Assembly: GCA_001871015.1 (NCBI GenBank)
Contig: MNUO01000049.1
Coordinates: 1-17,394 of the forward strand
Direction: 5' to 3'
DNA from: Candidatus Desantisbacteria bacterium CG1_02_38_46
GTDB taxonomy: Bacteria; Desantisbacteria; UBA1551; UBA1559
DNA: 17,394 nucleotides
Every line of letters starts with the position of its first letter. The first letter of the stretch is position 1. Of the stretch, positions 6,624 through 17,394 are shown piece after piece. Both the position numbers and the translations under genes were made by a program. Below the pieces are notes generated by a model. The model was not told the origin of the DNA and did no database searches. It saw nothing but the letters and a program-made list of their open reading frames with translations.

Positions 6624-7034
6624 TTAAGGTTTTTTAACTTCAAGCCCTTCTATTTTTTTGAAGTCTTTTTCGTCATAAGTGTAAACAGTTGTAAATCCTT
6701 TTTCCATGCCCCAGTGTCCCATTACTGCATCAGCAAATTTTATGCCCTTTGTTTCATAATCTGACAGAGCTTTTCTAAAAACCTCTTCACTTTCCGTTTT
6801 TATCCCGGGTGTGTTTAGAATTGCCCCCACCAGCTCCACTATATTTTGCCTGGAGTACTTATAAACCTTTTCCAGCACCCAGACTATTTCAAGAATCGTA
6901 ACCGGAAGAAGATAAAGAGAGGCCTCGCGCTCATTGGCGTTCTTGATGAGCTCAAGGCAGGACTTGATTTTTACCTCGTCATCCTTTATCAAGAGCCGCA
7001 GAATGATGTTTGTGTCCAGAAATGCCTTACTCAT
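6624..7034 (-). CDS. vapC: VapC-like PIN-domain toxin ribonuclease (copy 1)
   Basis: A 136-residue PIN-domain protein. The acidic metal-site residues are all present: D7 in FLDTNI, E49 in TILEIVW, D102 in FADAV and D121 (or D124) in TYDEKDF. VapC toxins are magnesium-dependent endoribonucleases that cut tRNA or rRNA and are held inactive by the cognate antitoxin. The start codon lies inside the end of the antitoxin gene (8-bp overlap), typical of translational coupling in toxin-antitoxin operons. The toxin looks intact. Its RNA target cannot be read from sequence. Confidence 0.9.
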   Translation of the reverse strand: MSKAFLDTNIILRLLIKDDEVKIKSCLELIKNANEREASLYLLPVTILEIVWVLEKVYKYSRQNIVELVGAILNTPGIKTESEEVFRKALSDYETKGIKFADAVMGHWGMEKGFTTVYTYDEKDFKKIEGLEVKKP

Positions 7035-7257
7035 CTTTCATTGCCTCTCGCGTTGCCTTCTCCCTTATCTCTCCAATGCTCATTCCGATGTTTGGCAGGG
7101 TCCCAACATAGTCGTAAATAGTCTTCCCTTTCCTGAGGATTATTTTTTCTTTTTCTTCTTCCAGCACAACAGCGTCCCCCAGGTGCAGGTTTAGCTTTTT
7201 ACGAATTAGTTTTGGAATAGTGATTTGATATTTTGGTAAAACCTTAACGCTTGTCAT
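7027..7257 (-). CDS. vapB: AbrB/SpoVT-type antitoxin, VapB-like (copy 1)
   Basis: A 76-residue protein with an N-terminal swapped-hairpin AbrB DNA-binding domain (about 3-46: VKVLPKYQITIPKLIRKKLN, GDAVVLEEE, IILRKG) and a short C-terminal tail (47-76) that would wrap the toxin. A strong AGGAGG (7271-7266) sits 8 bases before the ATG. It is first in a two-gene operon with the PIN toxin, behind a near-perfect promoter. Antitoxins of this kind usually bind and repress their own promoter together with the toxin. Confidence 0.88.
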   Translation of the reverse strand: MTSVKVLPKYQITIPKLIRKKLNLHLGDAVVLEEEKEKIILRKGKTIYDYVGTLPNIGMSIGEIREKATREAMKDE

Positions 7258-16086: not shown

Positions 16087-16488
16087 CTATGGGACGACTC
16101 GTTTTATGCCTTCTATTTTATCAAAATCTTCATCATAACTGTAGATCTCTTTTATTCCTTCTTTTATCACACAGGCAGCATTATAGGCGTCTGCAAACGA
16201 TATATTTTTTTCAATATAGAAATCAAGGGCATGTTCATAAATTTCTCTATTTGCCAGATGAAGACCTTTGAGTGCTAAAATCGGCAACAAAAGATTTTTA
16301 ATTTCTTGCCCTGGTATTCCATAAGATTTTTCAAGGGTGAAAATCGTCTCAAAGATTACAAGCGGAGACATTGTGATTATTTCTTCGTTCTTCTCAACCC
16401 TTTTAAACAGAGCGAGCACCTTATTGGCTTTTTCTTTATCATCCTTGGTGAAAAAGCGAATCAAAAGGTTGGTGTCAATAAAGCGCAT
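16087..16488 (-). CDS. vapC: VapC-like PIN-domain toxin ribonuclease (copy 2)
   Basis: A 133-residue PIN protein with the acidic residues D5 (FIDTN), E47 (VIFETIF), D100 (SFADAY) and D119 (SYDEDF), so it should be an active endoribonuclease. It is recognisably related to the other PIN toxin 9 kb away: the start DTN-(I/L)(I/L)-(I/L)R, the LEK-Y pattern near residue 53 and the ending YDE-DF-KIEG are shared. It starts two bases after its antitoxin gene's stop codon. Only 45 bases separate it from argJ in the same direction. Confidence 0.9.
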   Translation of the reverse strand: MRFIDTNLLIRFFTKDDKEKANKVLALFKRVEKNEEIITMSPLVIFETIFTLEKSYGIPGQEIKNLLLPILALKGLHLANREIYEHALDFYIEKNISFADAYNAACVIKEGIKEIYSYDEDFDKIEGIKRVVP

Positions 16489-16490
16489 AG

Positions 16491-16748
16491 CTAAACTTCC
16501 TTCCTGACTTCTTCGGCTACTTTCTCTTCAAACGATTTCCTTAATTTTTTGAAATCCTCGGGCATGTGTTTAGGGCGCACGCGTCCAAAAGCGGATTCTA
16601 AATTAAGAATGGGCCGTATTTTAATTCCATTATCCTCAATGTCAAATTCAATTTTATCCCCCGCTCCAATTTTTAAAATTTCTCTTACTCTCTTAGGAAT
16701 GGTCGCCTGCCCTTTCGGGTTCAATGTAGTAACAATGCTTGTTTTCAT
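16491..16748 (-). CDS. vapB: AbrB/SpoVT-type antitoxin, VapB-like (copy 2)
   Basis: An 85-residue protein from ATG 16748, chosen because GAGGGGGG ends about five bases upstream; an upstream TTG start would run through that site. An AbrB-type DNA-binding domain (about 2-45: TTLNPKGQATIPKRVREILK, GAGDKIEFDIEDN, GIKIRP) is followed by a charged tail (KKLRKSFEEKVAEEVRKEV) that probably binds the PIN toxin encoded next. No convincing promoter is visible just upstream; a TTGACA at 16783-16778 (minus) lacks a -10 box and is part of an inverted repeat. Confidence 0.86.
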   Translation of the reverse strand: MKTSIVTTLNPKGQATIPKRVREILKIGAGDKIEFDIEDNGIKIRPILNLESAFGRVRPKHMPEDFKKLRKSFEEKVAEEVRKEV

Positions 16749-16772
16749 AATAACCCCCCTCAATAATTTTTG

Positions 16773-16867
16773 GTAGTGTCAAAAATATCTTAGCAGTTTT
16801 ATTAATGTAGGGACGGAGATTTGAAGATTTAGTCTCCCTCCCCCTTTTTTTGATACTTTTGACCTAC
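16773..16867. repeat. 95-bp inverted-repeat element, possible MITE or transposon end
   Basis: GTAGTGTCAAAAATATC (16773-16789) is matched in inverted form by GATACTTTTGACCTAC (16852-16867), whose reverse complement is GTAGGTCAAAAGTATC. The arms differ by one gap and one base. They enclose a second, G-rich stem-loop. No coding frame is evident. It could be a miniature element or the left end of the element carrying the gene at 17129. Confidence 0.5.
16810..16851 (+). terminator. Terminator-like hairpin facing the gene at 17129
   Basis: GGGACGGAGA (16810-16819) pairs with TCTCCCTCCC (16833-16842) with one mismatch; the loop is 13 bases. CC and seven T (16845-16851) follow on the plus strand. 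No plus-strand gene ends here within the window, so it would stop transcription coming from outside and heading toward the downstream gene. Confidence 0.5.
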
Positions 16868-16904
16868 TTTTTGTTTTTAAAAAATATATTAAAATTAGCA
16901 GTAG

Positions 16905-17036
16905 TGCTTAGTGGATAATGTGGGTCCCCCTGCTTGTCTGCGTCAAGCAGACAGGGGGATCCAAGCGATGTGGAAACTGTGTCTCCGATGCAACATCGGA
17001 GCATCAGTTTCCACAGAGCGTCATTATCCACAAGCA
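16905..17036. other. Three-way-junction fold of nested inverted repeats
   Basis: The outer stem is TGCTTAGTGGATAATG (16905-16920) with CATTATCCACAAGCA (17022-17036): 15 pairs with one bulged A. Arm A (16922-16962) has CCCCC/GGGGG, a left bulge TGCT, then TGTCTGC/GCAGACA and loop GTCAA. Arm B (16970-17014) has GTGGAAACTG/CAGTTTCCAC, a 3x3 internal loop, CTCCGATG/CATCGGAG and loop CAA. No coding frame is evident. It could act as folded RNA, extruded DNA or a transposase recognition site; function unknown. Confidence 0.65.
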
Positions 17037-17052
17037 AAGTTTATATAAGTCC

Positions 17053-17133
17053 CTCATGGACTTGCCTTCTTTAAAAATTTGAGTATAATAAACTCAAATA
17101 TTTTAAATCTTCTTTCGGAGGTAAGTCCATGAG
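17053..17133 (+). promoter_or_regulatory. Long hairpin that can mask the ribosome binding site and start codon
   Basis: CTCATGGACTT (17053-17063) is the exact inverted copy of AAGTCCATGAG (17123-17133), which contains the start codon. The pairing extends over the GGAGGT ribosome binding site as 17 bp with two G-U pairs in RNA. An inner stem pairs TTTAAAAATTTGAGT (17071-17085) with ACTCAAATATTTTAAA (17092-17107). A nine-base bulge lies on the 3' side. Only transcripts starting upstream contain the left arm. Confidence 0.7.
17062..17089 (+). promoter_or_regulatory. Promoter of the plus-strand gene at 17129
   Basis: TTGCCT (17062-17067) and TATAAT (17084-17089) with 16 bases between. The -10 box lies at the tip of the long hairpin. 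Transcription would start near 17096, leaving the ribosome binding site unpaired. Confidence 0.55.
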
Positions 17134-17394
17134 AAAAATAGAGCGATTCGTTATCTGGATATGTTCTAAGTTTACTCGTAATGAAATAGAACAAATTATT
17201 CAAGGACTACAAGATGTTTTAGCAAATCGTAATCCCGAAGTTAAACCCAGGGATGATTTCAAAGAAAAACATCCAAACTGGCGTAATTTCTACGTTGATC
17301 CTAACCTACCACTTCCAGCAAAAGAAGAATCAGGCCCTAAGTTAGACTGGAAAGAATTGCTAAAACAATACGAGAAAGAGCATGGCGAATCTTT
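17129..17394 (+). CDS. N-terminal part of an unidentified protein, possibly a transposase
   Basis: The frame starts at ATG 17129 with GGAGGT (17118-17123) five bases upstream and stays open to the window edge (88 codons). The protein starts MRKIERFVIWICSKFTRNE, followed by EQIIQGLQDVLANRNPEVKP and a proline- and charge-rich linker (51-88). I do not see a diagnostic domain in this part. The general look resembles, from memory, N-termini of transposases in uncultured bacteria, and the upstream read-through protection is a known transposase feature; both are weak grounds. It is the only clear plus-strand gene. A DNA-binding or regulatory protein is the alternative. Confidence 0.7.
   Translation, partial: MRKIERFVIWICSKFTRNEIEQIIQGLQDVLANRNPEVKPRDDFKEKHPNWRNFYVDPNLPLPAKEESGPKLDWKELLKQYEKEHGES

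Follow-up and report, generated by a model that had tools for sequence, protein, structure and literature searches.

A leader hairpin over the transposase start of an IS6-like insertion sequence as a probable safety catch against incoming transcription

Read-through RNA of IS10 is thought to fold and thereby hide the ribosome site of the transposase gene, whereas the element's own RNA, which starts inside, does not; the inverted repeat lies near the outer end of the element. IS200, a single-strand element of the HUH/Y1 type, lacks terminal inverted repeats. Protection of Tn10/IS10 from external promoters was reported by Davis, Simons and Kleckner (1985, as cited in PMC2965389), and in IS200 the secondary structure of the leader RNA limits transposase synthesis (Beuzon et al. 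1999, as cited in PMC2965389 and PMC8944449). In ISPpu9, a structure in the 5'-UTR covers the ribosome site and limits transposase translation; the native mRNA itself contains this structure, and an antisense RNA is proposed to open it (PMC8450116). Of the IS6 surveys, PMC7986276 uses neither "hairpin" nor "impinging" and PMC6807381 does not use "hairpin", and no description of start-hiding logic in the IS group treated here was found in the open-access papers searched.

The hairpin before the gene at 17129

The window, which is the whole stretch analysed, comprises contig C59 (17394 bp), the end of which falls inside the gene starting at 17129. The start-codon segment AAGTCCATGAG (17123-17133) has an exact inverted copy, CTCATGGACTT (17053-17063). 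The computed RNA fold contains an outer stem of 17 bp, two of them G-U, which covers GGAGG and ATG, and an inner stem closed by a 7-nt loop (17085-17091) within the TATAAT region (Table 1). The fold of 17045-17145 reaches -37.7 kcal/mol against -14.1 +/- 2.9 kcal/mol for shuffled sequences (z -8.07, with 0 of 200 shuffles as good), whereas RNA beginning at 17096 has no unusual structure (-6.2 kcal/mol, z -0.2). The best promoter-like pair of the leader consists of TTGCCT and TATAAT, separated by 16 bp, with the -35 box sitting in the left arm. An Rfam search returned nothing at gathering score, only chance microRNA and snoRNA matches (E 0.17-0.82).

These results confirm the hairpin as it was described in the initial annotation, which had reported an exact inverted copy of the start-codon region upstream of the -10 box, a 17-bp duplex over the ribosome binding site and ATG, and a second stem at TATAAT. 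The folding comparison of long and short RNA that it had proposed also separates the two.

Table 1. Positions of the hairpin, the transposase gene and neighbouring features in the window
Feature	Coordinates	Strand	Basis
Probable left terminal inverted repeat GGTAGTGTCAAAAATATCTTAG	16772..16793	+	Motif also found at either end of L023, L037/L042, L044 and the four-copy G473 element; next bases match the L023 and L025 left ends
Dispersed palindromic three-way-junction element, between IS end and hairpin, outside the hairpin	16902..17036	.	Five close copies elsewhere in the assembly; -83.9 kcal/mol, z -12.5
Left arm of outer stem (anti-SD/anti-start arm)	17053..17069	+	Pairs with 17117-17133; pairing kept in relatives
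Predicted -35 hexamer TTGCCT in left arm	17062..17067	+	Top promoter-like pair, 16-bp spacer
Inner stem-loop around -10 box	17070..17107	+	17070-17084 paired with 17092-17107; between-arm region z -4.9
Predicted -10 hexamer TATAAT	17084..17089	+	Transcription expected from ~17096 (predicted start point), past the left arm
Shine-Dalgarno GGAGG in right arm	17117..17121	+	Sequence and fold
Right arm of outer stem over SD and start codon	17117..17133	+	Fold
Transposase gene, first 88 codons, runs off contig end	17129..17394	+	63-86% identity (best segment) to L023-L025 transposase N-termini; full-length L023 has DDE_Tnp_IS240

The dispersed element at 16902-17036 possesses an outer stem, GTGGATAATG/CATTATCCAC, with copies in L002-L006 and L018. 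Five near copies are located near contig ends, at least one of them just past the stop codon of an open frame. The copy on C114 carries a both-sided change, GTGGATACTG/CAGTATCCAC; the hairpin tips differ among copies, and one end has TTATCCACA, the DnaA-box consensus. Hairpins of the form GTCCCCCCGTCTGCTTGTCGCAGACAAGCGGGGGGAC also recur in the genome (L007 1501-1536 and L008 1501-1544), one of them just upstream of a gene start. Elsewhere in the window, two MazE-like antitoxin/PIN-domain toxin pairs on the minus strand (16087-16748 and 6624-7257) flank an arginine-biosynthesis gene cluster.

The transposase gene and its IS6-like relatives

On the evidence of its relatives, the gene at 17129 encodes the N-terminal part of a DDE transposase, and the insertion sequence (IS) to which it belongs measures ~1.8 kb and has the ends GGTANTGTCAAA. 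The 88-aa fragment by itself matched no family in Pfam or NCBIfam. Its nearest relatives come from metagenome-assembled genomes: L023 from Atribacteria, L024 from Ratteibacteria and L025 from Aerophobetes. The full L023 protein, composed of 483 residues, matches DDE_Tnp_IS240 (Pfam PF13610, E 2.4e-10). Further relatives, sharing 29-37% identity with L023, are present in Geobacillus, on Pediococcus and Levilactobacillus plasmids, on viral-collection contigs and in other genomes, and several of the relatives' genomes fall in the class to which the Spo0A-bearing genome G052 belongs. Searches of viral contigs with the window or the L023 protein, and of phages with L023, returned nothing.

The relatives' transposases measure ~451-488 aa, and their alignment reveals invariant D304, D364 and E410, together with invariant C107, C110, C130, C133, C151, C172 and C177 (CxxC motifs) behind ~100 N-terminal residues. 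In G473, four copies delimit an 1831-bp element whose ends are CGTATTGTCAAAA and GGTAGTGTCAAAA, each copy flanked by a different exact 8-bp target duplication; exact 8-bp duplications are also present in L023, L042 and L044. The initial annotation had placed the gene, by inference, in a mobile element while finding it unlike the transposases of IS10, IS50 and IS200, and both points are borne out by the relatives and the L023 domain match: the product is a DDE transposase of a different kind and not a housekeeping protein.

The only other piece of this gene in the assembly is C102:6-218 (residues 114-182), which is followed by unrelated sequence. If C59 and C102 are neighbours, as we infer, the copy in the window is probably truncated and not active. 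The genes of L024 (~313) and L025 (~3150), which come from different phyla, are fragments too, and in both similarity is lost right after the same codon, at residue 50 (FKEKHP). Read outward, the terminal repeat at 16772 and at other family ends contains TTGACA, the consensus -35 box, so hybrid promoters could arise where an element joins flanking DNA; IS6 elements are known to form such promoters (PMC7986276).

The long-transposase IS6 group, which comprises ISTet2, ISHahy6 and ISHco2, corresponds to clade VIII of Harmer and Hall (PMC6807381) and to clade i of PMC7986276. Judged by sequence features, the window element fits this long zinc-ribbon IS6-like group, the comparison with ISTet2, ISHahy6 and ISHco2 being one of architecture. 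The G473 element is longer than 1700 bp and generates 8-bp duplications, the alignment contains zinc-ribbon CxxC motifs with an N-terminal extension of ~100 aa, and a DDE_Tnp_IS240-type domain with conserved D, D and E is recognised in L023 and in the alignment. For the strict IS6/IS26 family of short transposases, L023 stays below threshold, scoring 61.3 bits against a cutoff of 125 for the NCBIfam IS6 equivalog model NF033587.

Arm pairing across relatives and its alternative readings

Start codons and core arms were assigned by eye, and the pairing and arm-swap tests are independent of the core arms. The duplex test takes the RNA duplex energy between -105..-28 and -20..+14 relative to the start. 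In nearly every relative's leader, the left arm is complementary to the Shine-Dalgarno (SD)/start segment of the same leader, with different letters; 17 family leaders average a duplex z of -2.7, compared with -0.09 for 37 ordinary genes (Mann-Whitney p 1.3e-6). Another four full leaders, retrieved once the test had been fixed and run under unchanged settings, all passed (p 0.004, 0.018, 0.030 and 0.012). Pairing is individually weak in L034, L056, L025 and L033, and by the same test it is not significant in the pseudogene L042 or in the degenerate L035. Three other IS6-family leaders gave z values of -0.5 (L051), -0.1 (L053) and -2.6 (L054).

Exchanging arms between elements revealed a preference for the cognate partner. 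Cognate arms pair at -21.7 kcal/mol and non-cognate arms at -14.3 kcal/mol in 12 elements, with 0 of 100,000 permutations as good; the corresponding values for 16 elements, whose effective number is smaller because several come from one related (Geobacillus-like) subgroup, are -21.5 and -14.6 kcal/mol, with 0 of 200,000 permutations as good. L061 and L066, which are close to the Geobacillus type, were left out of the counts. Both-sided changes separate near relatives, from CTTGCCTCC/GGAGGCAAG in L023 to CTTGTCTCC/GGAGACAAG in L025, and from CCCGGAC/TCCGAG in L032 to CCCGAAC/TTCGAG in L034. The initial annotation had looked to homologous loci for conservation of the left arm and to other genomic copies for compensatory changes; both are found in the relatives, the arm being kept as a pairing partner while its letters have changed. 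Leaders of the Geobacillus type (L031, L033, L036 and L043) contain a second inverted repeat, which could also hide the start; one of its arms (TTGAGGTAAC) lies just past the -10 box and the other (GTTACCTCAA) within the opening codons.

The arms could instead be half-sites of a DNA operator, both bound by the transposase or another protein that represses the promoter between them, with covariation following the changing specificity of that protein. We consider this improbable as an explanation of the pairing, and it is the main rival, or else a companion, to a role in RNA, with which it could coexist. Each arm is placed where binding would repress, one at the -35 box and the other at the SD/start, and zinc ribbons and an additional N-terminal region are present in the transposase. 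The wobble test gives no support for RNA: the arms contain 8 G-U against 19 A-C mismatches, a count due in part to AT-rich extensions included in the comparison and to a C-A mismatch common to one subgroup, and with G-U not preferred, sequence alone is no proof of RNA-level selection. Against the operator, the inverted repeat places its inner arm over the SD and/or start codon of the transposase gene, and in every element this right arm lies over either the ribosome landing site or the start codon, which a DNA operator does not require. There is folding between the arms as well (mean z -2.1), through inner stems that are unlike between elements (TTGTTTTAGG/CCTAAAACAA in L062; ATCTTGG/CCAAGAT in L065), and the spacing of the core arms ranges between 39 and 62 nt.

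A 5' transcription terminator or attenuator, halting incoming RNA polymerase and not ribosomes, is very unlikely. Other transposases are known to be preceded by such terminators (PMC2965389), but here what follows the right arm is coding sequence lacking a U-run, and the conserved pairing is centred on the SD and start codon. A palindrome arisen by chance, or a dispersed hairpin repeat inserted before the gene, is scarcely credible and is refuted by the arm-swap test: although a palindromic dispersed element adjoins the hairpin (16902-17036), the 1.73-Mb genome assembly holds no second copy of 17053-17133, so the hairpin is not a dispersed repeat that landed there by chance, its z is -8.1, and the family keeps the pairing with different sequence.

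Promoter position, proposed mechanism and known systems

In 12 of 16 elements, against 3.7 expected (P 1.3e-5), the highest-scoring promoter prediction has its -35 box within the left arm. Promoter-like pairs include TTGACT-17-TATAGT in L023, TTGCCA-17-CATCAT in Geobacillus, TTGCCA-17-TATATT in L045 and TTGCCT-16-TAAAAT in L047, while the best promoter score falls outside the left arm in L024, L025, L034 and L056. With the -35 box in the left arm, the element's own transcripts should start past that arm. Mean unpaired probability is a blunt measure and was replaced by the cost of opening the SD/start region (-14..+3), compared with controls. In each of the 16 elements, this region costs 2.2-13.9 kcal/mol more to open in the read-through RNA than in the RNA predicted from the element's own promoter, and the same truncation at 39 ordinary control genes changes the cost by a mean of 0.4 kcal/mol (p 5e-8). 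The picture given in the initial annotation stands with two additions: a promoter is predicted inside the hairpin, as it had claimed, the -35 box itself belongs to the left arm, and the window copy is probably truncated.

The predicted fold, the family covariation, the positions of the promoter boxes and the predicted difference in opening cost together make it very probable that the hairpin acts as a safety catch of the insertion sequence against incoming transcription. The element's promoter would lie inside the hairpin, with the -35 box in the left arm and the -10 box at the inner stem. Native mRNA would start ~30-50 nt before the start codon, without the left arm, and its SD and start codon would be comparatively open. 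Polymerase arriving from a neighbouring gene would copy the left arm, and the resulting RNA would fold over the SD and start codon, so that the transposase should not be made. The interpretation first proposed for this leader is supported, the silence of read-through RNA and the translation of short RNA being its predicted step.

A broader reading, for and against which we find the case evenly balanced, is that an IS clade spread over several bacterial phyla carries an overlapping code in which the -35 hexamer is also the anti-SD arm. RNA from the element's own promoter would then necessarily lack the silencer, RNA bearing the silencer would necessarily come from outside, and the arms may double as a DNA operator for the transposase. 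A safety catch of the proposed kind would place protection from incoming transcription in a DDE IS group for which the survey PMC6807381 found no experimental data, and would show that covariation has preserved it across deep divergence. A -35 box overlaid on an anti-SD arm would represent a compact, testable design for a leader that reports where its own RNA began, and would offer a way to recognise similar leaders in other mobile elements.

Among the described systems, the leader resembles that of IS10 in that read-through RNA is predicted to hide the start and own RNA is not; it differs in having an unrelated transposase and an arm that is itself the -35 region. The likeness to IS200 lies in a leader RNA structure that, here by prediction, limits transposase synthesis, but the present element is of the DDE type, with terminal repeats and 8-bp target duplications. 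ISPpu9 likewise has secondary structure over the ribosome site, whereas the native mRNA here should be without the stem. With clade VIII/clade i, the relatives share the IS240/IS6-type DDE domain, the zinc-ribbon CxxC motifs, a further N-terminal extension, a length of 1.7-1.8 kb and 8-bp target duplications (the last two known here from relatives, the window holding the left end only), and they differ in a transposase length of ~451-488 aa against 453-454 aa. Start-hiding logic itself is known from IS10 and IS200; for its conserved presence in these elements, with a -35 box that doubles as the anti-SD arm, the open-access papers searched gave no description.
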